Virus record (IMG/VR): IMGVR_UViG_3300023174_000033
Location: 62,001-126,000 of that record
Length of the DNA stretch: 64,000 nt
DNA from: a virus
Reading direction: 5' to 3' (one strand)
Of the stretch, positions 14,219 through 60,154 are shown one piece after another. The position numbers and the translations under genes were made by a program. Every line of letters begins with the position of its first letter. Within the stretch, counting starts at the first letter, position 1. The notes under the pieces were generated by a model. That model was not told the origin of the DNA. It saw only the letters and a program-made list of their open reading frames with translations, and did no database searches.

Positions 14219-14220
14219 AA

Positions 14221-14812: not shown

Positions 14813-14924
14813 AAAAAGATTAATATTATTGATTTGCTTATTGTCACTTTCCCTATCAGCATGTAAGACAAGTAAAACTTGTCCTACATACGAATGGATT
14901 TTCTCAAGCTTGAGAAATATCTGA
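14805..14924 (+). CDS. Small lipoprotein (39 residues)
   Basis: The protein begins MNKKRLILLICLLSLS and continues to a lipobox LSAC, with the acylated Cys at residue 20. The mature part has only 20 residues and includes SKTCPTYEW. It is a textbook type II signal peptide: a basic N-region, a Leu-rich core, and Ala before Cys. Very short lipoproteins with a C-x-x-Tyr mature segment are common in Bacteroidota. Its ATG overlaps the stop of the previous gene, and its 3' end overlaps the convergent nusG gene by 21 nt. The role is unknown; superinfection exclusion or lysis are possibilities without direct evidence. Confidence 0.65.
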   Translation: MNKKRLILLICLLSLSLSACKTSKTCPTYEWIFSSLRNI

Positions 14925-15437: not shown

Positions 15438-15439
15438 AT

Positions 15440-15841: not shown

Positions 15842-15902
15842 AGACTTTTTTATAAAATAAGATACAAAAGTTAAATAAATTTTATATCTTTGTAAAAATA
15901 TT

Positions 15903-18155: not shown

Positions 18156-18206
18156 GATAATTCGTTTTTTTTTGTTTATATTTGTAAAAACTTGTTTTGT
18201 TTCCAA

Positions 18207-18533
18207 ATGAAAAATCATTTAAGGGATAGAGGTTGGAGGAGATTCAAATTGGAATGTTACCACTTGAGACGCATGAAAAGGTGGTCGGGTTTGTATTGGT
18301 ATCGTTGGACTGATGTAAATCTAATATCAATTCAAAAGCCCATATGGATTGATTCTATAGGATTGGGAAACGTGAACATTGCGAAGAAAACAAGAACAAC
18401 AAAATGGGATACAAGACACAAAATGAAATGGGGGAAAAAGGGCAAAAGGAATTATGACTATAGCTCCGACCCCAATACAAGAATAAAAGATAAAGTTAGA
18501 TTTCTTAAAGAACTCAGAGAATATGGATATTGA
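18207..18533 (+). CDS. Hypothetical basic protein
   Basis: Starting at the ATG at 18207 the product has 108 residues and is strongly basic with many Trp and Tyr residues (RDRGWRRFKLE; later MKWGKKGKRNYDY). No family is recognised; the composition suggests nucleic-acid binding. A TATATTTG box lies about 22 nt upstream of the ATG. The gene is divergent from the RNase H gene and overlaps the next gene by 11 nt. Confidence 0.5.
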   Translation: MKNHLRDRGWRRFKLECYHLRRMKRWSGLYWYRWTDVNLISIQKPIWIDSIGLGNVNIAKKTRTTKWDTRHKMKWGKKGKRNYDYSSDPNTRIKDKVRFLKELREYGY

Positions 18534-36646: not shown

Positions 36647-39600
36647 TTATTTGTATAATATTGTACCTGTTGTGGATGAGGAGAATGTTACCCCAAACGA
36701 ATTAACATCATTGTGAATTATACTAATTGGATTTATTACACTGTTATTAGTATCTAGTATCTGAACGATCGGGAAATATCCTAAGTTGTGTTGGACAAGG
36801 TATTCCGTACCACTGTTGAGTCCTGTGCCATCCAATGAATAACTACATCCAACTAGACTCGGTAACCAAGTTAATTGACCAATACCGTTTACTCCAATTG
36901 CAAAACTCGCAGATCCTCTAACATAATTCAGATTGACCCAACTATTTCCTATGGTGATACTGTTTGACGCACCATACTCAACACTGTTGCTTTCCAAGTG
37001 TATGTAAGGACCACTACCAGCTGTTGAACCGTCAATTAAATCAGATGCGGATACTTCAATTTTCGCCTCAAATGAAGGTGGATCAATATGAGAACCTCCA
37101 ATTATGTATTTACTTCTAATCTTAACTCTTTCCTCAACATCAACATTCGATATTGGGGCTTGGTAGAAATCCGATCTAGAATTATTAATACCAACCCCAG
37201 CTAATCCACCCGATACAAAATTTTCCCTACTTGAGTAAACTGCTGGATATAATTCGTTTGTGGTGTGGTCGTATTTGCTAGCACTTGGGTTAAATCCAAT
37301 AAGACCAGATGATTCAAGTACAAATGCGTATTCACTATTAGCCAAAGTCGCGCCTTTTATGTATCCATCTGTCGTTGAGTTGGAAATTTTAATTACATAA
37401 TCACCATCGTAAGACCATGAAGCGGTATTTCCAATTGTTAGAGTTTGGTCAAATGTGTAGATTGGAGCTGGTCCTTGTGGACCTGTGTCACCTTGATCGC
37501 CTTGAGGTCCCATCTCACCTTGTTCACCTTGTGGGCCCATCTCGCCTTGGTCACCTTGTGGGCCCATCTCGCCTTGGTCACCCTGTGGCCCCATTTCGCC
37601 TTGGTCACCCTGTGGCCCCATCTCACCTTGGTCACCCTGTGGCCCCATCTCACCTTGGTCACCCTGTGGCCCCATCTCACCTTGGTCACCCTGTGGCCCC
37701 ATCTCACCTTGGTCACCCTGTGGCCCCATCTCGCCTTGGTCACCCTGTGGCCCCATCTCACCTTGGTCACCCTGTGGCCCCATCTCACCTTGGTCACCCT
37801 GTGGCCCCATCTCACCTTGGTCACCCTGTGGCCCCATCTCACCTTGGTCACCCTGTGGCCCCATCTCACCTTGGAATCCTTGAGGACCAGTTACTCCTTG
37901 TACACCCTGGACACCCTGTAGACCCTGTGGACCAGTTATTCCTTGAACACCTTGGAATCCTTGTGGGCCAATCATACCTTGATGCCCTTGTGGGCCGAAA
38001 TCACCTTGGAATCCTTGTGGACCAGTAACACCTTGGAAACCTTGTGGACCGGTTGATCCCTGTGGACCAGATAGCCCTTGAAGACCTTGTGGACCAGTCA
38101 TACCTTGGAAACCTTGAGGACCGGTATCTCCTTGATATCCTTGTGGGCCCGTATTACCAAATGGCATGAAAGTGAAATTATAAATACTGTTAGGATAGAA
38201 TTGACCATTTGAGACAACAGGAGAGGAAAGACTCAACCCATAAACATTATTACTCTGTATTAGATTAACACCATAAACTGGGTAAATACCAACATTACTA
38301 GCTGTCAAAGCATCGGATACCTGTATCCATGTATTAATACCCTTATCAACAAATGTTTTTAGTGAATTAAACCAACCAGAGTAGTTTACCCCGTTGACAT
38401 CAGTTTTGTGAATTTTCAGATAATCATTCAGAGCGAAATTTGCATCTTCAATATCAAACTTACCAGTAGCAACACTGCCATTATCTAAACTCTCACATCT
38501 CCACTGTACCACAGTTTGTACTAAAGAAGTAACGGTTCCTTGTGGTCCTTCCAAACCTTGGAATCCCTGTGGACCCATATCACCCTGTGGACCACTTACA
38601 CCTTGGAAACCTTGTGGACCAGTCTCACCCTGTAATCCTTGTGGACCACTATAACCTTGAGGGCCAGTCATACCTTGTGGACCAGTCTCACCCTGTAATC
38701 CTTGTGGACCACTATAACCTTGAGGGCCAGTTACACCCTGTAATCCCTGTGGGCCAATAATACCCTGAAAACCTTGAGGGCCAGTTTCACCCTGTGACCC
38801 TTGAGGCCCAGACAACCCTTGAACCCCCTGTGGACCAGTATCACCTTGATTACCTTGGGGACCACTGTAACCCTGTGGACCACTGTAACCCTGTGGACCA
38901 AAATCACCTTGGAATCCTTGCGGACCTGTAATTCCTTGAACACCAGTTGATCCAGTTGATCCAACCGAACCATTAGCCACCCAAGTTACGTTATAAAGTT
39001 GCTCAGCAGCGAAAGATCCACTTGAAACAACAGCGGTTGAATCCACTTTAACAGAGTAGGTTGTGCCGTTGCCGGTCACACCAGTTACTCTATATAGCCC
39101 TGTATTACTTGGAGTTAAAGCATCGTAAATTTGTAGATAACTAGTGTTTTCATTTTGAACAAATATTCTAAGTTGATCAAACCATAATGAGTAATCTACA
39201 CTTTGTATATCTTGTTTATGGAAATTAAATTCTGAATTATTAGCAAATGTATTATTTTCAGAACTGAAATAATTTGGGTTATTTAATAGAGGATTGAAAC
39301 CTTTATACTTCCACTGGACAATTGTTTGCACTAATGACACAACCGAACCTTGGTCACCTTTGTATCCTTGTGGACCTGTTTCGCCCTGTGGACCAGATAA
39401 TCCCTGTAATCCTTGTGGGCCAGTATTACCTTGGAATCCTTGTGGGCCAGTATTACCTTGAACACCTTGAAAACCTTGAGGACCAATATTACCTTGATTA
39501 CCTTGTGGACCAGTCATTCCTTGATTACCTTGTGGACCAGTCATTCCTTGGAAACCTTGTGGACCAGTCATTCCTTGGAAACCTTGTGGACCAGTTTCAC

Positions 39601-42600
39601 CCTGTGACCCAGTATTTCCCTGTGAACCTTGAACGCCTTGGAAACCTTGTGGACCAGTCATTCCTTGATTACCTTGTGGACCAGTATTGCCTTGCAAACC
39701 TTGTGGACCAGATAAACCTTGAGGGCCAGTCACACCTTGCAAACCTTGTGGACCAGATAAACCTTGAGGACCAGTCACACCTTGCAAACCTTGTGGACCA
39801 GATAAACCTTGAGGACCAGTTCTTCCGAATGGTATCCAAGTAACATTGAAAACACTGGTTGGATTTAGAGTTCCGTTACCAACGATTTTATTCCCAACGT
39901 TAATAGTGTATTTAGGATCCGTGTAAGATAAACTACTAACTGGAAATAAACCAGTGTTACTTACTGTTAGCGAATCGTAAACTTGTATATAAGCTAAACT
40001 TCCACCGTCTACAAATCCTTTTAATTGGTCAAACCAATCGTTATAATCAACACCATTTATATCAAATTTATTGAAAACAAACTGTGTTGGTGGTGATGTA
40101 GTGAAGTTCGAACTGTTTGATTCAAATCTTCCATTCGGAAGTGATCCACCTATCAATCCGTCATATCTCCACTGCACAATTGTTTGCACCACCGAAACAA
40201 CTACACCCTGTGGTCCGGTATCACCTTGTAGTCCTTGATTACCCTGTGGGCCACTGAATCCTTGTGGACCAGTTACACCTTGATATCCTTGTGGACCAAA
40301 TTTTCCTTGTGGTCCTGTATCACCTTGTAATCCTTGTGGACCAGATAATCCTTGTGGACCTGTCTCCCCTTGGAATCCTTGCGGACCGGTGTTACCCTGA
40401 AAACCCTGTGGACCAGATAGACCCTGAAGACCTTGTGGGCCACTGAATCCTTGTGGACCGGTGTCACCTTGATACCCCTGTGGACCCGTATTACCTTGTA
40501 GACCTTGTGGGCCGGTGTTACCCTGGAATCCTTGAGGACCTGTATCACCTTGATAACCTTGAGGACCCGTATTACCTTGTAGACCTTGCGCGCCGGTGTT
40601 ACCCTGGAATCCTTGTGGACCAGTCATACCTTGTAACCCTTGGGGACCAGTCATACCTTGTAACCCTTGTGGGCCGGTGTCACCTTGATAACCTTGTGGA
40701 CCACTATATCCTTGCGGGCCAGTCTCACCTTGGAAACCTTGTGGACCAGTCTCTCCCTGAACGCCAGTTGAACCGGTGCCCCCAACTGAACCATTAGCAA
40801 CCCATGTTACGTTGTATAGTTGTTCAGTCGCAAAACTACCATTTGAAACAACTGCTGTAGAATCAACAGATACAGAATAAGTTGTCCCGTTGCCGGTCAC
40901 ACCAGTTACTCTATATAGCCCTGTATTACTTGGAGTTAAAGCATCGTAAATTTGTAGATAACTAGTATTTTGATTCTCAATGAATATTCTTAATTGTTCA
41001 AACCAAAGAGAATAGTCAACACTTTGTATATCTTGTTTATGGAAATTAAATTCGTTATTACTACCAAATGCAGGATTTTGTGAACTGAAATAATTTGGGA
41101 ATGATCCTAATGGATTCGTACCTTTGTATTTCCACTGAACAATTGTTTGCACTAATGACACAACCGAACCTTGGTCACCTTTGTATCCTTGTGGACCAGA
41201 ATATCCTTGTGGACCAGATAAACCTTGCACACCTTGTGGACCTGTCTCACCTTGGAAACCTTGTGGACCTGTCTCACCTTGGAAACCTTGAGGGCCAGAT
41301 AAACCTTGAAGTCCCTGAGGCCCGGTCATACCTTGGAAACCCTGTGGGCCAGTTGAACCTTGATATCCTTGTGTGCCAGTGTTTCCTTGTGGACCTGTAT
41401 CACCTTGCAAACCTTGTGGACCAGTTGAACCTTGAAACCCCTGTGGACCAGATAATCCCTGTAAACCTTGTGGACCAGATAAACCTTGTAGTCCTTGTGG
41501 ACCGGTATCACCTTGGAAACCTTGTGGGCCGAAATCACCTTGGAAACCTTGTGGGCCTGTAACTCCTTGTAGTCCCTGGGAGCCACTGTATCCTTGTGGA
41601 CCAGTTATTCCTTGGAAACCTTGGGGTCCTGTTTCACCTTGATATCCTTGAGGACCTGTATTACCTTGAGATCCTGTGTTGCCCTGTGGACCTGTATTAC
41701 CTTGGAATCCTTGAGGACCTGTATTACCTTGGAATCCTTGAGGACCTGTGTCGCCTTGATAACCTTGTGGACCACTAAAACCCTGTGGACCAGTGTCACC
41801 TTGTGGACCAGTTGGTCCGGTAGCACCTATGGAACCATTTACGAACCAACCAATGTTATATATGTTGTTACCTGTAAACGTGCCACTACCAACTATAGCT
41901 GGAACGTCTGTAAAGATATAGTAGCTATGGGTACTAAATACTTGAGAAGGACTTGTCTGTGTAGCAGCAAGAACTTTGTAGAATCCAGTTATACTCTGAG
42001 TTGTTGAATCATAGATTTGTAAGTATGAAGGATTTTCATTATTAACAAACTTTTGCAATTGATCAAACCAGAGTGAATAACTAACTGAGTTGATATCCCT
42101 AAATTCAAATCTGAAATAAGGGTTAGTTGGTAAATCAATACTACTAGTTTCAAAATAACCTTGGGTTAGGCCGCCACCCAATAAACCACCATACTTATAT
42201 TGTATTATGGTTTGGACCATGGAAACAACTAATCCGTCAACTCCTTGTGGGCCGGTATCACCTTGGAATCCTTGTGGGCCAAAGTCTCCTTGGAATCCTT
42301 GAGGTCCACTAAATCCTTGGGTGCCTTGTGGGCCGGTATCGCCTTGTGAACCTTGTGGGCCAGATAATCCTTGTGGACCAGTGTTTCCTTGATATCCTTG
42401 TGGACCAGTGTTTCCTTGATATCCTTGTGGGCCAGATAATCCTTGATGTCCCTGTGGACCAGTGTCTCCCTGTGATCCTTGTGGACCAGTATCTCCTTGA
42501 AAACCTTGAGGACCAGTGTCTCCCTGATAACCCTGCGGACCACTTTCGCCTTGAAAACCTTGAGGACCAGTGTCTCCCTGATAACCCTGCGGACCGGTAT

Positions 42601-45196
42601 CACCTTGATAACCCTGCGGACCACTTTCTCCTTGATAACCCTGCGGACCAGTATCACCTTGATAACCCTGCGGACCAGTATTACCTTGGAATCCCTGTGG
42701 ACCACTTTCTCCTTGAAAACCTTGCGGACCAGTATCACCCTGATATCCTTGCGGACCGGTATCTCCCTGTAGTCCCTGTGGGCCAGTATCACCTTGATAT
42801 CCCTGTGCCCCCTGTGGGCCAGTATCACCTTGATATCCTTGCGGACCGGTATCACCTTGAAATCCTTGATCACCTTGTGGGCCAGTATCACCTTGTGATC
42901 CCTGTGGGCCAGTATCACCTTGATAACCCTGTGGGCCAGTATCTCCTTGAAATCCTTGATCACCTTGTGGGCCAGTATCACCTTGATATCCTTGAGGACC
43001 GGTATCTCCCTGAACGCCTTGAGGACCAGTCTCACCTTGGAAACCTTGAGGACCAGTCTCACCTTGAACACCAGTTGAACCAGTACCACCAAATGATCCA
43101 TTAGCAACCCAAGTAACATTATAAACTTGTTCTGTTGCGAAACTTCCATTTGACACTAATGCGGTTGAGTCAACCGAAATTGAATAAGTTGAACTTCCAT
43201 ATGTAACACCAGTCACTCGGTATAGACCAGTGTTACTGGATGTTAAAGCATCATATACTTGTAAATAACTTACATTTTGACTATCTACGAAAGTTAAGAG
43301 TTGTTGAAACCAAACTGAATAATCTATGGATTGATTATCTAGTTTATTGAAAATAAATTCACTATTACTAGCAAAAGTAGGTTGATCGGAAGTAAAATAT
43401 TTTGATACCGGTTCAGTTGCTGAATTTAGACCTTGGTATTTCCACTGAACAACAGTTTGAACTAATGAAACAACAACCCCCTGTGGACCTTGTTCACCTT
43501 GAGTTCCGGAAAAACCTTGAGGACCGGATAATCCTTGAACACCCTGTGGGCCAATTTCCCCTTGTGGGCCACTTTCTCCTTGAAAACCTTGCGGACCAGT
43601 ATCACCTTGATGCCCTTGCGGACCAGTATCACCCTGTAGTCCCTGTGGACCTGTTTCACCTTGATACCCCTGTGCCCCCTGTGGACCTGTTTCACCCTGG
43701 TAACCTTGTGGGCCAGAAATACCTTGCACACCTTGTGGACCAGTTTCTCCTTGGAATCCCTGTGGGCCGGTATCACCTTGATATCCCTGTGGACCTGATA
43801 AACCTTGTAGTCCTTGTGGACCCGTCAAACCTTGTGGACCAGTTAAACCTTGATAACCCTGTGGGCCAGAAAGTCCTTGTGGACCCGTGAAACCTTGTGG
43901 GCCTTGTGGACCGGTGTCACCTTGATAACCTTGAACTCCGGTTTCTCCTTGCCAACCTTGTGGACCAGAAACACCTTGAGGACCTGTAGTGCCTTGGAAA
44001 CCTTGAACACCAGTACTGCCCTGCCATCCTTGTGGACCAGAAAGTCCTTGTGGACCAGTAACACCCTGGAAACCTTGAACACCAGTACTACCCTGCCATC
44101 CTTGTGGACCAGATAACCCCTGTAATCCTTGTGGACCAGTAAAACCTTGATATCCTTGCACACCAGTGTTTCCCTGCCATCCTTGTGGACCAGATAAACC
44201 CTGGAATCCTTGTGGACCAGTCATACCTTGATATCCTTGTGGACCAGATAACCCCTGTAAACCTTGTGGACCTGTATCACCTTGCAAACCTTGTGGGCCG
44301 GTTCTACCTTGGAATCCCTGTGGACCAGTTCTACCTTGATAACCTTGAGGCCCAGATAAACCTTGAAAACCCTGTGGGCCACCAGAACCTTGAGAACCAG
44401 TGGCACCACCACCGGTTATAATCTTACCACTGAATTGTTGGTCAAAAGTAACAACGTAAGTATCTGTACTAATATAATTAACAGAATATGAAGCTGGTTG
44501 AATGTTTACGTTACCATTGGAGGTATCAACTGCTTGTACTAGTGGATATCCATTGAAACTATGTGTAACAGTAACTTGAGTTTTATTAGAAAAGTCTGTT
44601 ATAAAATTTGAGACAGCATCAAGACCTCTCGGACCTTGAACACCTTGTGGTCCACTCAAACCCTGAAAACCAGTATTGCCTCTACCTGGGTTTGTAGCCC
44701 AACCAATTGTATAGGTTCTCCCATCTACAAATACACCACCAACTGCAATTGGTTGCACATTTAGATCAAACCCCGTAAATCCATCATCTACAATATTTGT
44801 TACTTGAAAAAGAGCTCTGTTTAGAGGGTCTTGATCTTCAACTATATTTAAATAACTTATTTGTTCACGGTCAACAAAAACTTTCAATTGTTGTAACCAA
44901 GGGGAATAATCCACACCATAAAGGTCAATATATTGAATACTTAAAGAAGTAATAAATTCAGGATCGTCATTATTTGCAACAAATTTTTGTATGGTTGTAA
45001 GATTACCACCAGCTAGATATTTCCATTTTGATGAAGGTGAAGATAATTGCACTACCACGCCCTGTGGTCCTGTTTCGCCCTTTGGTGGTAAATCTACCGG
45101 ATTCCCAAATCCATCGTAGAATTCATTTCCGTTTATAACTTGTACTAATCGTTGATATGTACCTGATACGGTTGTTCCGGTTAAATTATATGACAT
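36647..45196 (-). CDS. Giant collagen-like phage fibre protein (2849 residues)
   Basis: The protein alternates long G-P-Q-G-x-Q-G collagen-like tracts with globular modules. Modules lie at about 44680-45060, 43090-43470, 41815-42240, 40770-41170, 39830-40205, 38965-39345 and 38155-38540. Each begins near [13 protein letters not shown] and contains [14 protein letters not shown]-type and YLQIYDALT-type segments. A different small beta domain ([17 protein letters not shown], near 44450-44600) recurs at the extreme C-terminus as [17 protein letters not shown]. The C-terminal 270 residues form the head. Collagen tracts in phage fibres are expected to form triple helices, so a trimeric, very long receptor fibre is likely. 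AATATATAG lies upstream of the start. One frame is open throughout. Confidence 0.9.
37505..37880 (-). repeat. 27-bp tandem repeat array (14 copies) in the fibre gene
   Basis: Fourteen units spaced exactly 27 bp (the CAT of each Met codon runs from 37511 to 37862) encode GDQGEMGPQ. Units differ by only a few synonymous or single changes, so the array is recent and its copy number is probably variable. Confidence 0.95.
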
Positions 45197-45634: not shown

Positions 45635-46315
45635 ATGGATAAGAAACCTATAATCAATTTTTCTAAATTTTACTCTGATAGTAAACAACAATCTACTCCA
45701 AAAACGGAGAAAAATAAAGATATGGTTGTGGAAAAAAGGAAAATTGAAAAAAAACCTTTGAAAGAATCAAAGGAAAAAGAAATGGAAATTTCTTATCCTA
45801 AAGAAGTTTCAAAGGTTATTGAGGAACCAGTGGTTGATAAATCATTTGATCCAAAAGTTGACCCAGAGTCTTTCATAGTGGATGAACCAGAGGAATTTGA
45901 GTATGAAGATGAAAATTTACCCTCATTAGATAATAAAAATAATTTTAATAAAGTGGAAGAAAATTATTACCCAGTTTATAAAGATAAATTTGAAAGCTTC
46001 ACCTGTAATGTTTTAGTTGAAGGTGCAAAATTAAATAACACAAAAGCTAGACTTATTTTAGAGTCAGATGATTGGAACCTTGTATTTGAGGGTGATATTG
46101 ATCAGACCGGAAAATGTACTATTCCTATCAAGAAACTAAACATTTTAGATGAGGGCACTGTTGGTAAAATAAGATTAGAAGTTATCGCCGATAATACCAT
46201 ATTCAGTCCATGGGAAGATGATTTCAAAGTAAGATTGAGTAAGAAGGTTGAAGTACAAGTTCCAAAGAAAGAAATTCCAAAGGAAACTTCCGTACAAGTA
46301 AAATTCAAAGGTTAA
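45635..46315 (+). CDS. Hypothetical protein with charged N-terminal half
   Basis: This 226-residue protein has a disordered, Lys/Glu-rich first half (residues about 15-110) and a beta-sandwich-like C-terminal half (about 115-205: FTCNVLVEGAKLNNTKARLI, then later KIRLEVIADN). No family is recognised. AATATATAGAT lies just before the ATG. Its stop overlaps the next ATG, so translation is probably coupled. Confidence 0.55.
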   Translation: MDKKPIINFSKFYSDSKQQSTPKTEKNKDMVVEKRKIEKKPLKESKEKEMEISYPKEVSKVIEEPVVDKSFDPKVDPESFIVDEPEEFEYEDENLPSLDNKNNFNKVEENYYPVYKDKFESFTCNVLVEGAKLNNTKARLILESDDWNLVFEGDIDQTGKCTIPIKKLNILDEGTVGKIRLEVIADNTIFSPWEDDFKVRLSKKVEVQVPKKEIPKETSVQVKFKG

Positions 46316-46560
46316 TGAAACATCTGGTTTATTTTAATCAACTAAACGAAAACCTACCAAGACAATCAACAGTTAATCAACTCAAGAGGTTGAGGAAATT
46401 AACAAAGGGAATAGATATCGGTGATAGAATTTCCGATATGACTAAACAAGGAGCAAATATATTGCACATAACTAATCCAGTGGATACTGGGGTTGAATCA
46501 ATTGAACATTTTTGGAAACATAATGACCCCGTAAAATTGTCAACCACAAAATCAAAATAA
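46315..46560 (+). CDS. Small protein with capsid-targeting-like leader
   Basis: The 81-residue product is basic, beginning MKHLVYFNQLNEN. This resembles the head-targeting leader seen on other proteins here, with a possible cleavage after LNE. The remainder is helical with no known family. It overlaps both neighbours by 1 nt, which suggests coupled translation with the 2H phosphoesterase gene. Confidence 0.55.
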   Translation: MKHLVYFNQLNENLPRQSTVNQLKRLRKLTKGIDIGDRISDMTKQGANILHITNPVDTGVESIEHFWKHNDPVKLSTTKSK

Positions 46561-47114
46561 TGGGGAAAATAAAAACTTACTCCGAATTCATGTTTATTTC
46601 CGAAGATAAATCAGGAACAAATTATGAATACGGATGTCTGATGTTAAATCTAAATTTCCAAAACTGGAAAATTTTCACCTCAAATATTGATAAAGATGAT
46701 TTATACGAATCGGAAAGTGAAAGATATGGAATTGAAACCGAACCCCATGTCACTATATTATATGGAATACACAAATCAGTTGATGATGATGTTGTTTATG
46801 CACTTTTTTCCGATTTGAAAAAGAATGATTTTGATTTAAAAGTCAGTGGGATTGACTGTTTCTTCAATAAAGATTATGATGTACTGAAAATGAACATACT
46901 TTCCGACAAATTGAGTGAGTTAAACAAACTTGCTAAAAGATTACCACACACATCTGATTATCCTGATTATAAACCACACATTACAATAGCCTATCTACAA
47001 AAGGGTAAAGCTAGTCAGTACGCAAACACAAACTTTAATATAAATTTGGATAACATAAATAAAATAGTTTATTCTAAATCAAATGGCCAAAAGATTAGCA
47101 TACCTGTTATTTAA
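46560..47114 (+). CDS. 2H phosphoesterase with capsid-targeting-like leader
   Basis: This 184-residue protein has the two His-x-Thr motifs of the 2H superfamily, EPHVTILYGIH (near residue 60) and KPHITIAYL (near residue 139), with normal spacing. The N-terminus, MGKIKTYSEFMFISED, closely resembles the T4 internal-protein leader MKTYQEFIAEA and offers a cleavage site after FISE. T4 Acb1, which hydrolyses cyclic nucleotides of CBASS, is a 2H enzyme, so an anti-defence role is plausible; RNA-end processing is the alternative. The gene overlaps the preceding leader-bearing gene by 1 nt and precedes gp32. Confidence 0.8.
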   Translation: MGKIKTYSEFMFISEDKSGTNYEYGCLMLNLNFQNWKIFTSNIDKDDLYESESERYGIETEPHVTILYGIHKSVDDDVVYALFSDLKKNDFDLKVSGIDCFFNKDYDVLKMNILSDKLSELNKLAKRLPHTSDYPDYKPHITIAYLQKGKASQYANTNFNINLDNINKIVYSKSNGQKISIPVI

Positions 47115-47252: not shown

Positions 47253-48215
47253 ATGGAAAAATTTAACGAAATGGATGACTTATTTGGAACAAATTTAGAC
47301 ACCAAAATGGATTTTCTCAATGAGAAAAAACCACAAAGCGCTGATGGGGTTTACAGAATTGACCTCACAAAAGTAAAAGACAAGAAAAGAGGTTACAGGT
47401 CTGTAGTCAGATTTCTACCCAACTTGACAAAAGAAGGAAAAGTGGGACAAGCGGCTATTGAAAAAATTGCTCATTATGTTAACATCAAAGAAGCAAAAGA
47501 ACTTTCTGGTTGGTTTGATTCACCGAAAAATTTCGGTGAAAAATGTCCACTGACAGATCTTTATTATCAAATGATGAACTCTAAAAACGTAGTTCTTCAA
47601 GAGAAAGCTAAATGTCTAAACTATTCCAAAAAATATTATTCTTATGTACTTGTTTTGGAAGATGAACAACAACCAGACCTTGTTGGAAAGATTATGTTGT
47701 TCTCATACGGAAAAACAATTAAGGATAAAATCGCAGCTGAAAGGAATGGTGAAATCACTGGTGTTTCTTGTAACATTTTTGATTTGGCACAAGGAAAGGA
47801 TTTTGTACTACTAGCAAAAGAAATTTCAACTGGTGATGAAAATTATCCTGATTACAAAAACTCAATGTTCAAACCAGAGGTAACTTCTCTTCCAATTTTC
47901 AACGAAGAAAAGAATGTTTTCAAAAACGTACCGGTTGTAGATGGTAAAGTAGACGCAAGGGCCCAACAAATGGTGAAAGAATTTCTACTGAAGCGTGAAC
48001 ATGATCTAGAAGAACAAGCTCCAAAGAAAGTTTCAGAAGAGCAACAAGGTAAAATTAGTGAAATAATTTCTTACCTAACTGGAAAAACCAGTGGTTCTTA
48101 TAACAATAGTTCTAAACCTTCTTCGGATGATTTTGAACTTGACGGTCTAGTCACATCTGGTACGAAGGAAGTATCAAATACTTCCACCGATGAAGACGAC
48201 TTCTTTGACTTTTAA
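47253..48215 (+). CDS. 32: Single-stranded DNA-binding protein (T4 gp32-like)
   Basis: This 320-residue protein is close to T4 gp32 (301). The core shows YRSVVRFLPN (near residue 48), the LSGWFDSPKNFGEKCPLTDL region (85-104) and KYYSYVLVLED followed by GKIMLFSYGKTIKDKI, matching the gp32 OB-fold. Cys98 and Cys121 are the only Cys in the region of T4's zinc site, so the zinc site is probably incomplete. The C-terminus is acidic and ends DEDDFFDF, as needed for partner binding. It coats single-stranded DNA in replication and recombination. A leader hairpin and a downstream terminator suggest an independent unit. Confidence 0.93.
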   Translation: MEKFNEMDDLFGTNLDTKMDFLNEKKPQSADGVYRIDLTKVKDKKRGYRSVVRFLPNLTKEGKVGQAAIEKIAHYVNIKEAKELSGWFDSPKNFGEKCPLTDLYYQMMNSKNVVLQEKAKCLNYSKKYYSYVLVLEDEQQPDLVGKIMLFSYGKTIKDKIAAERNGEITGVSCNIFDLAQGKDFVLLAKEISTGDENYPDYKNSMFKPEVTSLPIFNEEKNVFKNVPVVDGKVDARAQQMVKEFLLKREHDLEEQAPKKVSEEQQGKISEIISYLTGKTSGSYNNSSKPSSDDFELDGLVTSGTKEVSNTSTDEDDFFDF

Positions 48216-53090: not shown

Positions 53091-53690
53091 ATGAGGTTAT
53101 CATCACAGAATTCGCAATTTATATTTAACTTACCGAGTGATTTTCTCCCACAAGAGATTATAAATACTTACACACCAATACTAAAAAAGAATTGGATACA
53201 ATATGAGAATGTAATTGACTACTTAAATTCTACAATAAAGTCAATAAATTATCCTGGATTGACAGTTGAAACTCCTCAACAAAATTTGATTCGTGGTAAA
53301 GTAAGAGCATACAAACCATCAAAAAATGTTCAAGATATATTATCAACCAAAGATTTACAAGTAGTTTTCAGATCAGTTGATGCTGATTTAAATTATTGGA
53401 TATTCTATGATATATTCATCAAACACTATTTAGACGTTGGAAATATTTATGTGAACCCACTAACGATAACCGCAGTTGATATATGGAGAGATGGAATTTA
53501 CAAGATAAAATTCTTTGAAATAATGTTAGTTAATTTGAGTGAAAATACTTTTGACTACTCAAAACAACAAGTCAACGCAAAAGAATTTACGTTGACTTTT
53601 AGATTTAATTTTACAGATGTGGAGTTCCTACTCAATCAATCAAAAGTTTTGGAACTTGGAAGAGCTCCGAAAATTATTCAAAAGATTTAA
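53091..53690 (+). CDS. Tail-tube-like protein (gp19/gp54 fold), tentative
   Basis: This 199-residue protein contains a segment typical of tail-tube folds. These are INYPGLTVETPQQ near residue 59, VVFRSVDADLNYWIFYDIF near 100, then VDIWRDGIYKIKFFEIMLVN, and finally AKEFTLTFRFNFTDVEF. The order (loop, helix, strand with Asp-x-x-Gly, final strand with Phe-x-x-x-Phe) matches tube or tube-initiator proteins of contractile-tail phages. Exact identity is not certain. It follows the large virion protein by 15 nt, and its end overlaps the convergent glycosyltransferase gene by 4 nt. Confidence 0.5.
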   Translation: MRLSSQNSQFIFNLPSDFLPQEIINTYTPILKKNWIQYENVIDYLNSTIKSINYPGLTVETPQQNLIRGKVRAYKPSKNVQDILSTKDLQVVFRSVDADLNYWIFYDIFIKHYLDVGNIYVNPLTITAVDIWRDGIYKIKFFEIMLVNLSENTFDYSKQQVNAKEFTLTFRFNFTDVEFLLNQSKVLELGRAPKIIQKI

Positions 53691-54448
53691 GCAGTGAATG
53701 GCACTGAAATACCGTTAGTATTATTATACTTCTTCATTGTCCAATTTTGAGGCATAACAAAATGAGCTCCCCAACTTGAATCTTTATTAAAATCATGAAA
53801 AGTTCCTTCTCTGCCCATAGATGTACAAAGATGGATAAAAGAGCTATCAATACAATGTACTTCCTCCGCTTTCTCAATCATCCCACACCAATCAGTAATT
53901 GAACCAGTAATTGGAGTCACCCGAATAATTTTTAAATCTTTTCTAGTTTCCAATGGACAAGTTCCCCAAGAAGCAGTGTCATGTATTAAAATGAAAGGTT
54001 CCCCATTTGGGTTTAGTTGGTCTTCTATTTTTTTCTCTGTTTGATAGTCTCTGTCAATCTTAAACGAGGTCCATCTTTTTTCAAAGGGAATATTCATACT
54101 ATCATAAAAAGAAACATCCCAATCTTTCCTTGTTTTATAGTGACCGATCAAATAAATCTTGGAACAGAATTTGACATGAGGTAGATTATAAATTTCATTC
54201 CAATCTCCTTGAACCGATATCAATATCAATCTTTTTTCATCACTAAACATTTTAAATACGGTTGAATAGTTGTGATGTTTTACAGGCATAAAAAAATATT
54301 CAGCATCGGATTCTTGGTTGATTATTTCCCGAGTAAGACCATTGCAAACTATATGATCGCCTAAACCAAGATGTTGGTGAATAAAAATACACTTAACTGG
54401 TTTTTCAGAAATTCTTTTTACTAATTCATTTAATAAGTTTTCTTGCAT
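53687..54448 (-). CDS. GT-B-type glycosyltransferase (GT9/heptosyltransferase-like)
   Basis: This 253-residue protein shows HQHLGLGDHIVCNGLTREI (residues about 24-42), the glycine-rich start of GT9-like transferases. Near the C-terminus is AEEVHCIDSSFIHLCTSMGR, the donor-site segment with Asp-Ser-x-x-x-His typical of GT-B enzymes. It is shorter than classical heptosyltransferases. It is the last of seven consecutive minus-strand glycosyltransferase genes and is convergent with the tail-tube-like gene. Donor and acceptor are unknown. Confidence 0.7.
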   Translation of the reverse strand: MQENLLNELVKRISEKPVKCIFIHQHLGLGDHIVCNGLTREIINQESDAEYFFMPVKHHNYSTVFKMFSDEKRLILISVQGDWNEIYNLPHVKFCSKIYLIGHYKTRKDWDVSFYDSMNIPFEKRWTSFKIDRDYQTEKKIEDQLNPNGEPFILIHDTASWGTCPLETRKDLKIIRVTPITGSITDWCGMIEKAEEVHCIDSSFIHLCTSMGREGTFHDFNKDSSWGAHFVMPQNWTMKKYNNTNGISVPFTA

Positions 54449-54462
54449 AATTTAAATTATTT

Positions 54463-55161
54463 TTATCCACGATATCTATGCACATTTACAAATTGCCAAA
54501 AATTCGGATCCAATTCATTCTCATAACAATATTGGTCAATTTGTGGTAGGTGCATAACCTTATGTTTATGAGCCAACAAAGAAAAAATAGCTTGATCGTG
54601 TCTGTGGTCAATAAAATCATCAAAGTTTTCTTTGTGTTGATTTGGAAGATCGGTTATTGCATTTTTATTTTGAGATACTTCCAACCATTCCTCAACAAAA
54701 CTCATAACAAATTCTGTTTTTCTGAAAAAAATGTATGTAGCGTTGATTTGGTTCAAATCTTTTGATTGGTCCTTATCATCACCATTTGCGAAGTAAAAAC
54801 AATCACCTTTCGTATATTTTGATGTTTTGTGTATCAATTGAAAAGCCAAAATACCCCGATTGTCCATGAGCTTCATTATCGGATCAGGGTCTTTGACAAA
54901 CATGGCACCCGCGTCCATATAAATTAAGTAGTCTCCGAAATTTAATTTTTTTAATGTTTTATATATGAGGTGTGGTTTCCAAAGCCAATATCCACCACCC
55001 CTCGGAGAAGAAAGTATCTCTTTATTCCTCTCAAAAAAATCTGCATCTATATCCTTCTCAGAATATCCAATAGTTGTGAATCCAAGTAAATCTGCAACCC
55101 TCAATCCCTCACTTTGTGATTTTACGAATCCATTTGAGGCGTAATTTATAAAGTATTTCAT
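54463..55161 (-). CDS. Glycosyltransferase-like protein (GT-A, D-x-G-A type)
   Basis: This 232-residue protein shows SPRGGGYWLWKPHLIYKTL (residues about 52-70) and GDYLIYMDAGAMF (near 76-88), the pattern of GT-A proteins in capsule and fibre modification clusters. DHRHDQAIFSLLAHKHK lies near residue 190. It is a clear paralog of the gene at 55847, with the same GGGYW-W-K-P segment and HRHDQ motif. It lies within the seven-gene cluster, 14 nt upstream of the GT-B gene and 11 nt downstream of a GT2 gene. Confidence 0.75.
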   Translation of the reverse strand: MKYFINYASNGFVKSQSEGLRVADLLGFTTIGYSEKDIDADFFERNKEILSSPRGGGYWLWKPHLIYKTLKKLNFGDYLIYMDAGAMFVKDPDPIMKLMDNRGILAFQLIHKTSKYTKGDCFYFANGDDKDQSKDLNQINATYIFFRKTEFVMSFVEEWLEVSQNKNAITDLPNQHKENFDDFIDHRHDQAIFSLLAHKHKVMHLPQIDQYCYENELDPNFWQFVNVHRYRG

Positions 55162-55172
55162 ATTTTGTGAGA

Positions 55173-55832
55173 TTAAATTTGAACTCTTGAAATTTGGTCA
55201 TGTGGTATAGATTGATACTGAGCTTGTGAAACGGTTGAATTCCAATTATAGTAACACATCACTTTGTCAATAACAATTTCAGACTTAGCTCTTGAAATTG
55301 CTTCCATTACAAAAATTGTATCTTCTTGAGTATTTGAGTCCCCAAATGGAATTTCTTTGGCTAAACTTGTTTTCCACGCGCACCAATGCCAAGGTGGTCT
55401 TCTACACGGTACCGTTCTTCCATAATTATCTAAAGCTAACTGGTCGAACGGGAATTTATTATTATGTTGCAAACTTGTTTTTATAATCCAAGTTTTGCCA
55501 TCAATTTGTGCTTGTTGATCATAACAAATCACATCCACATCGGTATTATTAGTTATATGAGATCTCATAGTTTCAACAAAATCAGAAGAAACATCATCAT
55601 CATCATCAATTATGCAAGTATATTTACCTTGTGCGATTTTGAACAACAAAGTTCTTTTTCTACCGACACTCATTGCTTTATTGTCAATGATGGTAACTAC
55701 TTCTATATCTTTTGCATCACCTATCTGAGATTTCAACTTTTCGTAAAGTGGGGTTAGGTGTGTAAACATTCTATCAGGTAAACTAGGTATACCGATTGTT
55801 AATATTATTTCGTTTTTATTGAAATTTGACAT
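55173..55832 (-). CDS. Family 2 glycosyltransferase
   Basis: This 219-residue GT-A protein has ILTIGIPSLPDRMFTHLTP near the start, KYTCIIDDDDDVSSDFVETM (the metal-binding Asp run, near residue 72) and WHWCAWKTSLAKEIPFGD near residue 148 (acceptor-side region). The Asp run follows a strand of small hydrophobics as in GT2 enzymes. It lies between the two paralogous GT-A genes in the cluster. Donor and acceptor are not known. Confidence 0.8.
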   Translation of the reverse strand: MSNFNKNEIILTIGIPSLPDRMFTHLTPLYEKLKSQIGDAKDIEVVTIIDNKAMSVGRKRTLLFKIAQGKYTCIIDDDDDVSSDFVETMRSHITNNTDVDVICYDQQAQIDGKTWIIKTSLQHNNKFPFDQLALDNYGRTVPCRRPPWHWCAWKTSLAKEIPFGDSNTQEDTIFVMEAISRAKSEIVIDKVMCYYNWNSTVSQAQYQSIPHDQISRVQI

Positions 55833-55846
55833 TTTTATTATTAATT

Positions 55847-56587
55847 TTATCCCCTTATTCTTGTCGCCAAGAAAGGTACTTTTACAACATTAAACAAATG
55901 CATCCACCCATCATAATCGGGTGAGTAAGTTTCATCAGATACAATTACTGGATCTTTCACCTCTAATTTAACCAAACAAGATGAAACCGATTGGTCATGT
56001 CGATGTACTTGGTTTTTTTCATACTTTTTATAATCATTGTATTCATCGCTGAAAAGATATGGTGCAGTTTGTGTGATTTCTAGAAGTCTTTCTAAATATC
56101 TTTGACTATTTTTATTTTTCTTGAAAATCAATACTCCGGCCATAAGTATGTCTCTCTTTCTGAAATCCATATCATCTAATTTGCCGAAAAATTCAAAAAC
56201 TTTTGAATTAGTATGCCAATGTTCCTCGGTTCCTACGTGCTCATATCTGAAAATACCAGATTCGGTATTATCAATCATTTTTAGAAATTCATGGAGTCTT
56301 TCTTTTCCTTGTGGATTAACTGTACAACCACAATCAACATAAACACAATAATCACCATCATTCATTTTTTCAAATGTTTTCAACAAAATAGGTGCCTTCC
56401 ACATCCAATAACCACCACCCCTTGAGTGATTTATATATGGTTCTGTTTTTTTAATAAAATCTTCTGGAAGATCTTCCCTACCATATGCTTGAACATGGTC
56501 CAAATAACCACAATTTATAGCCTCTTTAACGATTCTCTGTTTTGAGGACAAATAATTTTGGTCACCATAAGTAATAAAATATATCAT
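55847..56587 (-). CDS. Glycosyltransferase-like protein, paralog of the gene at 54463
   Basis: This 246-residue protein shows HSRGGGYWMWKAPILLKTF (residues about 54-72), GDYCVYVDCGCTV (near 78-90) and VHRHDQSVSSCLV near residue 194, aligning with its paralog at 54463. The Asp in VDCG is the likely metal/donor site. Family members are often annotated as hypothetical in bacteria and phages. A duplication inside the cluster is the simplest explanation. Confidence 0.75.
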   Translation of the reverse strand: MIYFITYGDQNYLSSKQRIVKEAINCGYLDHVQAYGREDLPEDFIKKTEPYINHSRGGGYWMWKAPILLKTFEKMNDGDYCVYVDCGCTVNPQGKERLHEFLKMIDNTESGIFRYEHVGTEEHWHTNSKVFEFFGKLDDMDFRKRDILMAGVLIFKKNKNSQRYLERLLEITQTAPYLFSDEYNDYKKYEKNQVHRHDQSVSSCLVKLEVKDPVIVSDETYSPDYDGWMHLFNVVKVPFLATRIRG

Positions 56588-56616
56588 ATGTTTTATAATT
56601 AATTATTTATTTTTGT

Positions 56617-57450
56617 TTATTTAGAATCTATAATATCAAAAAGGAACTTTTTGATATTTTCTTCTTTATTATTTTCAGGAATCTGATTCTCCGGAAACCA
56701 TGGATTTGATATCATTTCAAGGTATTTTTCTTGGTTATTGTCTATCTCAATTATCTTTTCAATCATTTCTTTGAAATCATTGTGATCATAATAATTTATG
56801 AAAGATTTAGTATTGAATTCTTTATAAATATCTGGATTACCCCAATAGATAGGAATTGAATTTACCGTCATTGGTTCCATAATTTTTTCAGTGGTATATC
56901 CTTTATGTTGCGGTCTATAAGCATTGTTTTCAAAAGCAATTGAAAATTTATAAGTGGACTGAAACTCTCTTTTATCTTGAACAACGTATCCAATATTATT
57001 CATCCACCGACCACCACAATCTACCTTTTTATATTTTGACAACTCCTTTACAAAGTTATTTCTTTCTTGACAGTTACCGTTTGAAGCTACAAAATTGCAA
57101 AAATTTCTTTTGGAAAAAGATTCATCTATCACTTTCTCTCTCTGTAATTCATAGTATCCATCATAAAGCAAATAATGTGGTAATCTATAATTCCTTGGAT
57201 TATCCAAATAATCAAAAGAAAATGACCAATCACAATAATCCAAAGGGGGTGCTATATTTTCACCAGTATAAAATATCTTTTTACATTTATAATTTTGGTG
57301 ATTATTTCCAAATATTGAAAAGAATAAGAAATCAGGATTGTTACTGATTTCTATATCATATTCATCTTTTAAAAGATTGTAAAAATAATTATTAGTTTTA
57401 TCATATCCTCCCCAAAAATCAGAAAAATCAATTTTTATTTTCTTTTTCAT
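56617..57450 (-). CDS. GT10 family fucosyltransferase-like protein
   Basis: This 277-residue protein matches the alpha-1,3-fucosyltransferase family. STYKFSIAFENNAYR lies near residue 170, and YTTEKIMEPM followed by IPIYWGNPDI lies near residue 190, the conserved donor-binding segment that contacts GDP-fucose. YCDWSFSFDY near residue 72 is also typical. It overlaps the upstream gene by 4 nt. Fucose on a phage or host surface glycan is the predicted outcome, depending on a GDP-fucose supply from the host. Confidence 0.88.
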   Translation of the reverse strand: MKKKIKIDFSDFWGGYDKTNNYFYNLLKDEYDIEISNNPDFLFFSIFGNNHQNYKCKKIFYTGENIAPPLDYCDWSFSFDYLDNPRNYRLPHYLLYDGYYELQREKVIDESFSKRNFCNFVASNGNCQERNNFVKELSKYKKVDCGGRWMNNIGYVVQDKREFQSTYKFSIAFENNAYRPQHKGYTTEKIMEPMTVNSIPIYWGNPDIYKEFNTKSFINYYDHNDFKEMIEKIIEIDNNQEKYLEMISNPWFPENQIPENNKEENIKKFLFDIIDSK

Positions 57451-58142
57451 ATTGAAACTTGCAACCTCTCATTAAGTGATAGCTTTCTTCTTATTTCCCA
57501 TTTATGCTTATCATCCTCAAATTTATTGTAGTAATTTTGGTCATTTTGGTCTGGATTTCTTTTACCATTTGACCAATGAAAATGCTCAAATACAAAATCT
57601 TTATCTTGCAACCTTTCATCAATAATTAATTTCAATTGTTCAGCATTCAAATAGTGTTCAGCATCGGAACACAAATGATTATAAGCCGGATTATAAATTA
57701 TTTTATTCATTTTGAGCAAAGCCGAATAAGTCATAATTGGAATACTAAATACAGGTTCTGCCATATTACTAAAATCAAGAGCTTGGTACCCATCATTGAC
57801 CATCAAACAACCTTCCCTACCTTTTAACTTTTCAGATATATACTTGTCCCAATTATTTGGAGGTAAGAAATCATCAGAAGCAAAAATCACAACATCATCC
57901 GAGTTTCCCTCAACTCTAGAACTTAAATAATATGATGGATAAGCAACCCCTATTCTATCAGGTCTATCAGTTATAACAACATCTAAACTTGGTAAAGTTT
58001 TTAAGATTGAATCTTTCTGTGTTTGTGTGTTTACACAGACATATGTTTTTATCGTTTCATTTTTTGAGGATTTGTCCATCCAAGTTTTGAAAGAAGATAG
58101 AAAAACCTCGGGTCTTATCGTACACCATAATAAATGTATCAT
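57447..58142 (-). CDS. Glycosyltransferase-like protein (GT-A)
   Basis: This 231-residue protein has an N-terminal strand MIHLLWCTIRPEVFLSSFK, a DDVVIFASDDFLPPNNWD segment (near residue 86) with the Asp pair of a GT-A donor site, and HLCSDAEHYLNAEQ near residue 157. No single GT family is certain. It overlaps both neighbouring cluster genes by 4 nt, so it is part of a coupled operon. Confidence 0.65.
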   Translation of the reverse strand: MIHLLWCTIRPEVFLSSFKTWMDKSSKNETIKTYVCVNTQTQKDSILKTLPSLDVVITDRPDRIGVAYPSYYLSSRVEGNSDDVVIFASDDFLPPNNWDKYISEKLKGREGCLMVNDGYQALDFSNMAEPVFSIPIMTYSALLKMNKIIYNPAYNHLCSDAEHYLNAEQLKLIIDERLQDKDFVFEHFHWSNGKRNPDQNDQNYYNKFEDDKHKWEIRRKLSLNERLQVSI

Positions 58143-58912
58143 ATTGCCATATTTTTCATTTTATCAACATTACCAATGGCATCCTTTGATTGGACTGTTA
58201 ATTCGTAAAGTTGTTCTTTATTTAGGGTTAAATATCTGTTATATAAATGTAAATTTCTGAAATATAGTTCTTGATTTATATTGCCACGAATATGCCACAA
58301 ATGATAACATTTATCTTTAGCTTGAAAATGGTTTAAATAATTTTTTACTTTTATTGATTGGTAATCATCTTCAGCTCCCCATCCCCAAAAATCCTCGTTC
58401 CATCCACAGATTTTCTCTAAAGCTTGCTTTTGGAATATTATTATCCCACCACAAAAAGGAACTTTTTGGTGGTCAGTTTCTCCTCTACCTGGCCTTACAA
58501 TTGAATATAATTGGTTTATATCACCAGTTTTCCAATATTGTTCTGTTTCATTATATTCCAAATCTACCACCGATGAATATGGGTTTATACATTCATATTC
58601 GGAGACCAAATTAATTGAATTCATTAAAGACTCTTTATTCATAACCAAATCCGCATCTCCGAAAACTATAACGTCAGATTGAGCACTCTTCCAAGCCACA
58701 TTGAAACACCAAGCTTTATTAAAGGGATGTTCATTTTGAAGGAATATGTGTTTAAATTTTACACCCAAATCAACAGTTGAGAGGTAAGAATTCTTATCAC
58801 TTTCCACTACGATTATTTCACAATCAAGTTCCGAAACCCAACCCAAAATTTTTTGTAGATTATGAATTCTGTCTGGTGAATTTCTATAAGCTATTATATA
58901 AGAAAATTTCAT
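58139..58912 (-). CDS. Family 2/7-like glycosyltransferase
   Basis: This 257-residue protein has SYIIAYRNSPDRIHNLQKIL at the start, VIVFGDADLVMNKES (D-x-D site near residue 84) and WNEDFWGWGAEDDYQSIKV (near residue 178), the G-W-G-x-E-D-D motif of galactosyltransferase C-terminal regions. It should transfer a sugar from a UDP donor. It is the first gene of the seven-gene cluster, and its ATG overlaps the stop of the Clp-type gene by 4 nt. Confidence 0.85.
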   Translation of the reverse strand: MKFSYIIAYRNSPDRIHNLQKILGWVSELDCEIIVVESDKNSYLSTVDLGVKFKHIFLQNEHPFNKAWCFNVAWKSAQSDVIVFGDADLVMNKESLMNSINLVSEYECINPYSSVVDLEYNETEQYWKTGDINQLYSIVRPGRGETDHQKVPFCGGIIIFQKQALEKICGWNEDFWGWGAEDDYQSIKVKNYLNHFQAKDKCYHLWHIRGNINQELYFRNLHLYNRYLTLNKEQLYELTVQSKDAIGNVDKMKNMAI

Positions 58913-60081
58913 TTTTTTGATTTTGACTTTTTAATTTTAACAACCATTTCTTCCTTTTCCTTATTATAATCAAGTAGAATTTTACTCCCCTTTGGTGGAT
59001 TTGACTTGATTATTTCTTCTGTGATTGGATCCTCAATGTACTTTTGTATTGCTCTCTTCAATGGTCTAGCGCCATATTCAGCATCGTATCCTTTTTCTGT
59101 GACATAGTCTTTAGCCGCATCTGTCAAATCAAAATCAAAATCTAAAGATGCGATCCTTTCTATCATTTTTTTCAACTCCACGTTGATTATCTTTTGAATA
59201 TCTTCTTTTTCCAAAGAATTAAAAGTTATCACTTCATCAATTCTGTTTAGAAATTCAGGCGCGAATGTTTTTTTCAATTCTTTCTCAATTACTTCTTTTG
59301 AGTCAGAACCCTTATTTGACTCTTTTGATTTTGTAGTAAACCCTATACCGGTTCCGAAATCTTTTAATTGTCTAGAACCAGTATTTGAGGTCATTATAAT
59401 TATAGTATTCTTAAAATCAACTTTTCTACCCATTGAGTCTGTTAGCTGACCATCATCTAAAACTTGTAGTAACATATTAAAGACTTCTGGGTGAGCTTTC
59501 TCAATTTCATCAAGTAAAATTACAGAATATGGACGCCTTCTTACTTTTTCAGTTAGTTGACCACCCTCGTCATGTCCGACATATCCTGGAGGAGCTCCAA
59601 CCAATCTTGAAGTAGCAAACTTCTCCATGAATTCACTCATGTCAATTCTTATAAGTGATTCAGAAGAATCAAATAAATGTTCAGCAAGTACCTTGGCTAG
59701 TTGAGTATTGTGACTCAATAAACCATTTGTATAATACCTTCTGTCAGAATTTCCATCTAACTCAAGATCAAACATCACTTCATTATAATTCAACTCTTCA
59801 ACAGAATCAACTTCTTCAATTCCATTTTCAGCAATTATTCTATCACCGACTTTTAAGTCTTTCACAAAAACTTCTTCCAAGTTTTCTCTGAAAAGAATAT
59901 GATTATCAGCACAATAAAGTATTGTTTTATTTTTAGTAGTTAGTCTAAATACATCATACTTTACTGTTTGATGTAAATATTTTATATCTACAAATCCTGA
60001 ATCAGTCAATACTTCAAAATCATCAACTTTGTAGGAATCTGTTATTTTTTTATCATATAATGATAATTCGCTTGCTTTCAT
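58909..60081 (-). CDS. Split-intein C-fragment fused to the C-terminal half of a Clp AAA+ ATPase
   Basis: The ATG at 60081 (MKASELSLYDKK) gives 390 residues; a TTG 21 nt upstream is unlikely. Residues 1-125 are a Hint/intein domain ending in YYTNGLLSHN. Thr126 begins a Clp D2 domain in the middle of its Walker A (GVGK|T), with TQLAKVLAEHL following. Walker B is VILLDEIEKAHPEVF (Asp191, Glu192), sensor 1 is TSNTG, the arginine finger lies in APEFLNRIDE, and sensor 2 is GARPLKRAI. The N-terminal and D1 domains, the first part of the P-loop and intein block A (with Cys1) are absent here. They must be encoded elsewhere if the protein is functional. Trans-splicing would then give a full ClpB/ClpC-like unfoldase. 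It overlaps the cluster gene by 4 nt. Confidence 0.88.
   Translation of the reverse strand: MKASELSLYDKKITDSYKVDDFEVLTDSGFVDIKYLHQTVKYDVFRLTTKNKTILYCADNHILFRENLEEVFVKDLKVGDRIIAENGIEEVDSVEELNYNEVMFDLELDGNSDRRYYTNGLLSHNTQLAKVLAEHLFDSSESLIRIDMSEFMEKFATSRLVGAPPGYVGHDEGGQLTEKVRRRPYSVILLDEIEKAHPEVFNMLLQVLDDGQLTDSMGRKVDFKNTIIIMTSNTGSRQLKDFGTGIGFTTKSKESNKGSDSKEVIEKELKKTFAPEFLNRIDEVITFNSLEKEDIQKIINVELKKMIERIASLDFDFDLTDAAKDYVTEKGYDAEYGARPLKRAIQKYIEDPITEEIIKSNPPKGSKILLDYNKEKEEMVVKIKKSKSKK
59707..60081 (-). other. C-terminal part of an atypically split intein
   Basis: The 125-residue segment contains DFEVLTDSGFVDIKYL, the block B-like YCADNHILF (with the conserved His), KDLKVGDRI, the block F-like MFDLELDG, and block G GLLSHN followed by Thr. 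The canonical first block with the N-terminal Cys and its following 20-25 residues is missing. This is the arrangement of inteins split very near their N-terminus, such as AceL-TerL. No endonuclease domain is present. Confidence 0.82.
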
Positions 60082-60154
60082 AAAATTAAAAAAGATTTTC
60101 AAGGGTTTTTATCAAACTAATTGAATTTGTTTAGAAAAAAATTTGAAAATAAAG

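Follow-up and report, generated by a model that had tools for sequence, protein, structure and literature searches.

The window analysed here is a stretch of 64,000 nucleotides, G000:C1:62001-126000 of the 464,605-bp virus record IMGVR_UViG_3300023174_000033. Two open reading frames lie on its plus strand inside 46315-47114, encoding proteins of 81 aa (46315-46560, beginning MKHLVYFNQLNENLPRQ) and 184 aa (46560-47114, beginning MGKIKTYSEFMFISEDKSG), and the two share one base in a TAATG overlap. The preceding gene (45635-46315, plus strand, 226 aa) ends on 46315 and overlaps the 81-aa gene in the same style; its start (IINFSKF) is weakly leader-like, and a promoter-like AATATATA stands just upstream. 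Downstream lies the gene of a gp32-type single-strand DNA-binding protein (47253-48215, plus strand), which carries no leader and serves as a contrast and as a synteny anchor; an ATP-grasp RNA ligase of the same phage (15903-17186, plus strand; match at G000:C1:78437-79108), also without leader, is a second contrast. The minus strand of the window holds a collagen-like protein of 2849 aa that is very rich in GPQG-type repeats (36647-45196) and a row of genes resembling glycosyltransferases by eye (53687-60102).

On its profile matches and predicted structure, the 184-aa protein is a 2H phosphoesterase. Alignment places its HxT motifs at residues 63-65 (HVT, 46746-46754) and 140-142 (HIT, 46977-46985), opposite H44/T46 and H113/T115 of T4 Acb1; the sequence-only reading had both motifs and the coordinates right. 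The two His and two Thr of these motifs are kept in 50-52 of the 52 relatives aligned. Pfam Acb1 matches the protein at 2e-10 (41 bits, cut-off 27), 2_5_RNA_ligase2 (PF13563) at 8.7e-8 (32.8 bits, also above a cut-off of 27) and PHROG 755 'RNA ligase' at 1.2e-12, while phmmer against the solved Acb1 structure 7t26 gives 2.8e-5; TIGR02258 (ThpR) stays far under its curated cut-off (32.3 vs 65.7 bits). Acb1 is matched by 50 of the 52 relatives, and 2_5_RNA_ligase2 by equally many. The protein consists of a single domain and lacks the several unlike domains of a polyvalent protein. A profile scan of IMG/VR for 2H relatives gave 341 encoding stretches among 389 candidates, and the best 80 of the 341 were kept. 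Across 84,980 bacterial and archaeal species, represented by one genome each, the 2H profile found 8 loci only, and the gene is thus mainly viral.

The AlphaFold2 model, built from 52 aligned sequences, has a mean pLDDT of 89.9. Its first two ten-residue blocks stand at about 50 and the remaining ones at 87 or more, with the block directly after residues 1-20 above 90. In the model these 20 low-confidence residues form a leader outside the folded 2H domain (residues 22-184 approximately, 46623-47111), and in most comparisons known 2H enzymes match the model from about residue 19-23 on. Residues 1-15 (46560-46604), MGKIKTYSEFMFISE|D, constitute a predicted cleavable capsid-targeting leader of the T4 type, with an aromatic core and a hydrophobic-x-E cut site, ISE|D, the vertical line marking the predicted cut. 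The T4 leaders MKTYQEFIAEA of ipII/ipIII and MKTFKEFTSTTTPVSTITEA of ipI were used as controls, and the T4-like character claimed earlier for this start was borne out by that comparison and by a start pattern that exceeds chance.

Most stand-alone 2H relatives carry 10-25 residues ahead of the conserved YGC start, such as MIIKNYIQFIKES, MMKKYLEFIKEA and MIRLKRYSEFMQILED, with a leucine-rich form in other relatives (MKLRKILKEIQK, MNIKQRLREVLLEAE, MKDFIKSIFRKKLNEG). Among 59 distinct N-terminal extensions, 48 contain the T4-type head-protease motif [ILMVF]xE; residue shuffling yields 19.3 ± 3.3, and none of 2000 shuffles reaches the observed count. Since the relatives are not independent, the comparison describes the set more than it gives a probability. 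This count omits loci with fusions or several domains, incomplete frames, L143, which had been read in the wrong frame, and L152, for which no domain start was found; it assumes an upstream non-ATG start for L095, L096 and L142. In L115, L003 and L112 the rule that sets the domain start cut prematurely, and any extension above 30 aa was intended to be shortened to a later Met. Some relatives have no leader, e.g. L012, L014, L117, L124 and L151, the first two although their records hold a head protease.

The 81-aa protein has its own predicted leader, MKHLVYFNQLNE (46315-46350, plus strand, site LNE|N). Its relatives (L065, L066, L067 and L069) vary at the N-terminus up to an E and are conserved beyond it, with the junctions QLNE|NLPRQSTV, ELSE|GALPRKSTV and FIRE|GALPQESTV, a boundary that agrees with the earlier suggestion of a leader on the gene preceding the 2H enzyme. 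Around 2H loci with an aromatic leader, 103 of 391 neighbours bear an aromatic leader, compared with 9 of 87 around leucine-rich loci (p 0.03 by locus, with leader types assigned by a rule that made visible errors at L095 and L135). In four close huge phages (L075, L078, L080, L094) the 2H gene has many leader genes around it, frequently in runs without a break.

Leader-like starts were then counted in 266 mechanically called ORFs (first ATG) from 224 kb of the 464.6-kb phage, with 914 internal Met as control and with patterns written after examples had been seen. Pattern C, the T4 type (Y/F..F/Y, a hydrophobic residue, then E), is present at 10 of 266 ORF starts vs 2 of 914 internal Met, and pattern B (MK.[LI]...F/Y) at 34 of 266 vs 13 of 914. 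Column-by-column shuffles between proteins gave 18.4 ± 3.5 for pattern B and 2.3 ± 1.5 for pattern C, and 0 of 1000 reached the observed values. Enrichment was also found in LR745206 (pattern B, 11 of 53 vs 2 of 194) and in LR756504 (pattern C, 5 of 50 vs 0 of 203); it was absent in LR756500, LR756508 and LR756511 (18 ORFs each) and in Maribacter phages, and pattern B was not enriched in ten IMG/VR head loci (1 of 115 vs 7 of 715). Patterns A and B are mildly enriched in T4 itself (p 0.004 and 0.009) and are therefore not specific, and pattern C is not significant there (2 of 233, p 0.25). In the phage studied here the leader-bearing genes encode the 2H enzyme, a CCA-adding enzyme, a HAD-like protein and proteins of unknown function, and their leaders end mostly in NE|N, VE|S or SE|D.

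Such starts could instead be N-terminal helices for partner binding or cell placement, or a feature of translation start, on enzymes made in the infected cell. The leaders are indeed diverse, N-termini are biased in an A+T-rich genome, some relatives have no leader, and a profile of the scaffold repeat described below is not enriched at the N-termini. However, the enrichment survives shuffles that keep positional composition, identical leader residues are encoded by differing codons in this phage, and no leader is found on the DnaK, gp32, RNA ligase, topoisomerase-like or portal genes. The NE|N site furthermore occurs inside fusion proteins, where a start-codon effect cannot explain it, and we regard this alternative as rather improbable.

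A gp23-type capsid protein, a T4-type head protease and a portal are present in the record. The protease was identified with phrog_207 (1.1e-29, in L021); Peptidase_S77 (PF03420) had given no match, but it was silent on the controls too and was replaced. The protease is fused to a scaffold-like part made of tandem 14-residue units (YSEY[IL]AENLDKNI; L021:7865-9937, minus strand), and relatives, up to and including the 735-kb phage LR756501, keep this fusion. The units number 9-15 in 15 of 16 relatives and 2 in LR756500, and the protease-linked region of the present phage has 10 matches to [YF]xx[YF][ILMVF]xE, mostly YSEY[IL]AEN. The scaffold repeat was dropped as a source of the leaders: its profile (173 units from 15 relatives) was not enriched at this phage's N-termini (Mann-Whitney p 0.067; scores of at least 2 in 2 of 264 N-termini vs 20 of 2109), and our claim is therefore limited to a T4-like hydrophobic-x-E pattern shared by scaffold and leader. 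Behind the 2H loci, 21 of 34 records have a head protease match; the 13 others are contigs measuring 41 to 281 kb and possibly incomplete, the 41.5-kb portal-fusion phage among them.

The probable cleavage site of the capsid protein, SINE|NAYANA, aligns with FLTE|AEIGG of T4, whose gp23 is presumably cut at FLTE|A. Two further capsid proteins (L060, L061) have QINE|N and SINE|N, and the SINE|N site matches the ends of the leaders. An exonuclease occurs in close relatives. As a separate gene it carries a leader in L094 (MKILKYSELINE|NKMWYKS) and L110 (MKHIIGYNQLNE|NKMWYKT), and where the exonuclease is fused behind a 2H domain (L015, L084, L103, L109) the junction reads [IL]NE|NKMWYKT in 4 of 4. 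An NE|N junction that is kept inside fusions, where it is no longer a possible start signal, would be expected if the head protease cuts there. At the level of sequence this exonuclease junction is the best single argument for cleavage, the alternative being that its residues were carried along when leader-bearing genes fused.

Capsid targeting of the 2H enzyme is well supported by these comparisons, namely the leaders on most 2H relatives and on unrelated enzymes, the T4-type protease and the shared NE|N site, and packaging of the enzyme is probable. The proposal of an injected anti-defence 2H enzyme thus holds by comparison for its capsid-targeting part, while the anti-CBASS substrate attached to it is less certain. 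In the sequence of packaging, cleavage, injection and catalysis that we infer, the leader would take the enzyme into the scaffolding core at head assembly, the T4-type head protease would cut the protein after ISE, and the mature enzyme would stay in the head and enter the host with the DNA. There it would most likely act on cleaved host RNA, chiefly tRNA, whose 2',3'-cyclic phosphate ends it would open, and it would work with the co-packaged CCA-adding enzyme and the phage RNA ligases, such that translation would survive tRNA-cutting defences before phage gene expression. Packaging together with this RNA-end substrate comes close to an even chance without reaching it.

The substrate suggested earlier was that of Acb1, a cyclic di- or trinucleotide signal, which a packaged and injected enzyme would hydrolyse to counter CBASS. 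Judged from sequence and fold, the kinship with Acb1 is real at family level. The Pfam Acb1 match is above its cut-off and better than that of 2_5_RNA_ligase2, the phmmer match to 7t26 agrees with it, 7t27 is the first Foldseek match of the model, and T4/FBB1 Acb1 (gp57B) shares with the protein the 2H fold, both HxT motifs, an aromatic residue at three of the four base-stacking positions (Y12, W74 and F107, not W147) and a DYPDYxPHIT stretch. Five ligand or catalytic residues of T4 Acb1, with roles taken from PMC9117128, are identical (Y12, corresponding to Y24, and H44, T46, H113 and T115), and W74 and F107 are replaced by the aromatic F101 and Y134. In T4, the gene of the injected protein ipI lies directly beside 57B, the Acb1 gene (L029:23591-24410). 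The identity to T4 Acb1 is, however, about 20%, T4 Acb1 has no cut site before its domain whereas the present protein has a leader, and E141 and W147 stand opposite Q177 and V183, where the C-terminus is loosely aligned, so that the adenine contact and the lid residue are not kept.

Structure comparison, proposed with the Acb1 link, does give 7t27 as best Foldseek match but sets other 2H enzymes about as near. The highest VIA Z belongs to Usb1, which trims RNA 3' ends (13.6, rmsd 3.2, 157 aligned), and is followed by 12.9 (1iuh), 12.2 (Acb1) and 11.7 (LigT). Usb1, the Thermus LigT-like protein, Acb1, LigT and cGAMP phosphodiesterases lie too close together for the fold comparison to serve as evidence for one substrate. 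The kinship does not fix the substrate, since matches of about equal quality are obtained with Usb1, LigT and cGAMP phosphodiesterases, E141 and W147 are not conserved, and RNA/tRNA repair is favoured at least equally by the context of genes and domains. Fusions with CCA-adding enzyme or exonuclease and a HAD_SAK neighbour fit RNA better, and a packaged anti-CBASS enzyme, the second of two leading readings, appears less likely.

The CCA-adding enzyme of this phage starts with MRILNFKNFLVES and bears a leader of the type seen on the 2H enzyme. In this phage and five relatives the CCA-enzyme leaders have FLVE|S, FLE|S or FNE|S; among the 10 distinct starts read, one more leader is plausible and three distinct starts have none. 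The 2H domain is joined to CCA-enzyme domains in 5 of 8 scanned fusions (L098, L100, L108, L116 and L118; 685-1787 aa), which combine several unlike domains as polyvalent proteins do, and two of these (L100, L116) also contain ART-PolyVal. Another association is seen in L140, where a leader-bearing HAD_SAK_1 'RNA repair' gene lies directly behind the 2H gene. A CCA enzyme and an ATP-grasp RNA ligase were found in 11 of 11 records searched, HAD_SAK_1 in 8 of 11, the present phage not among them, and RtcB in 0 of 11; the two RNA ligases of this phage carry no leader. With HAD_SAK_1 three times and RNase_T once among 117 neighbours of 2H relatives, RNA-repair neighbours are few. A 2H domain of the same subfamily also ends portal proteins in L005-L007 and L147, a second tie to the virion through a fusion type that has already been reported.

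Because of the leader on the CCA enzyme and the 2H/CCA fusions in other phages, repair of RNA or tRNA ends is modestly favoured over cyclic nucleotides as the candidate function, and both are counter-defence in a wide sense. Against RNA ends stand the best Pfam match, which is Acb1 and not an RNA-end family, the TIGR02258 score under its cut-off, the failure to find HAD_SAK_1 in this phage, and its two leaderless RNA ligases. Bacterial ThpR/LigT is an RNA 2',3'-cyclic phosphodiesterase, which the present protein resembles in its 2H fold, its VIA Z of 11.7 to LigT and a weak TIGR02258 match, and from which it differs by that match being far below cut-off, by its leader and by belonging to a phage-borne family. 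In a survey of jumbo phages, 2H enzymes are given a role on 2',3'-cyclic phosphates and in RNA repair (PMC7824862). For these 2H domains Iyer et al. 2017 saw no association with RNA ligases (PMC5512222), which counts against RNA ends.

A packaged RNase or Usb1-like RNA 3'-end trimmer would attack host RNA instead of repairing it. Usb1 does have the highest VIA Z, but the next values are close (12.9 for 1iuh, 12.2 for Acb1), and a fusion to an RNase_T domain is set against the CCA-adding fusions, which suggest mending. Iyer et al. proposed that 2H domains joined to portal or MuF act as RNases (PMC5512222). We hold this alternative to be very improbable.

The T4 internal proteins IPI, IPII and IPIII resemble the present case in having a short leader at the N-terminus, built around Y/F..F and with a cut site of the [I/L]xE|A type, in the T4-type head protease, and in that a single kind of leader precedes mature proteins unrelated to each other. 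They differ in that the putative cargo here, known from sequence, consists of enzymes (2H and CCA-adding, with exonuclease and HAD in relatives), and in that a 464.6-kb phage has many leader genes with the predominant endings given above. The T4 proteins have a CTS in common and act against nucleases of the host, IPI being injected and blocking the gmrS/gmrD nuclease (PMC3012670), and IPIII counters an unknown barrier (PMC9391042). Iyer et al. 2017 describe 2H domains as parts of polyvalent proteins and of fusions with portal or MuF, with RNase or counter-nucleotide roles proposed (PMC5512222). Those domains are also thought to be injected, and the portal-2H (L005-L007, L147) and ART-PolyVal (L100, L116) proteins are of the same kind, whereas the present 2H enzyme is a single domain with a predicted cleavable leader and not a covalent fusion. 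No report of capsid-tagged (CTS) 2H or CCA enzymes was found in the open-licence literature searched.

In this very large phage a small 2H enzyme that would cut RNA or nucleotides, and further enzymes such as one for mending tRNA ends, appear to bear a short removable label, which suggests that the tagged enzymes are loaded into the head, injected with the DNA, and protect the infection from its first moment. Tentatively, and with somewhat less than even confidence, one removable tag may load many unrelated enzymes genome-wide in huge phages of this group, including a tRNA-end repair kit (2H and CCA-adding enzyme, with exonuclease and HAD_SAK phosphatase in relatives), the protease being fused to a scaffold of tag-like units. 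The virion would then be a ready-made translation-protecting toolkit, with tag, cut site and fusion junction as interchangeable parts. If true, the largest phages would bring enzymes into the cell, beyond small inhibitors, and would counter tRNA-cutting or signal-based defences ahead of all phage gene expression. With such a tag comes a simple sequence-based listing of the probable head contents of uncultured huge phages, and a pointer to those among their many unknown genes that are worth testing as first-minute counter-defences.

The T4 late promoter TATAAATA is not enriched ahead of the leader genes of this phage (2 of 47 vs 7 of 219 others). An ATATATA element, possibly a late promoter, is found within 45 nt upstream of 27 of 47 leader genes vs 57 of 219 others (p 5e-5). 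It peaks near -15 and -30 and precedes leader, capsid, portal and sheath genes, and it is seen, for example, just before 45635. Two tandem genes, L022:9815-14029 (1404 aa) and 14183-18325 (1380 aa), have the same tail-sheath-like start, MAAIQIGKYRRPGIFFEEFDLS.
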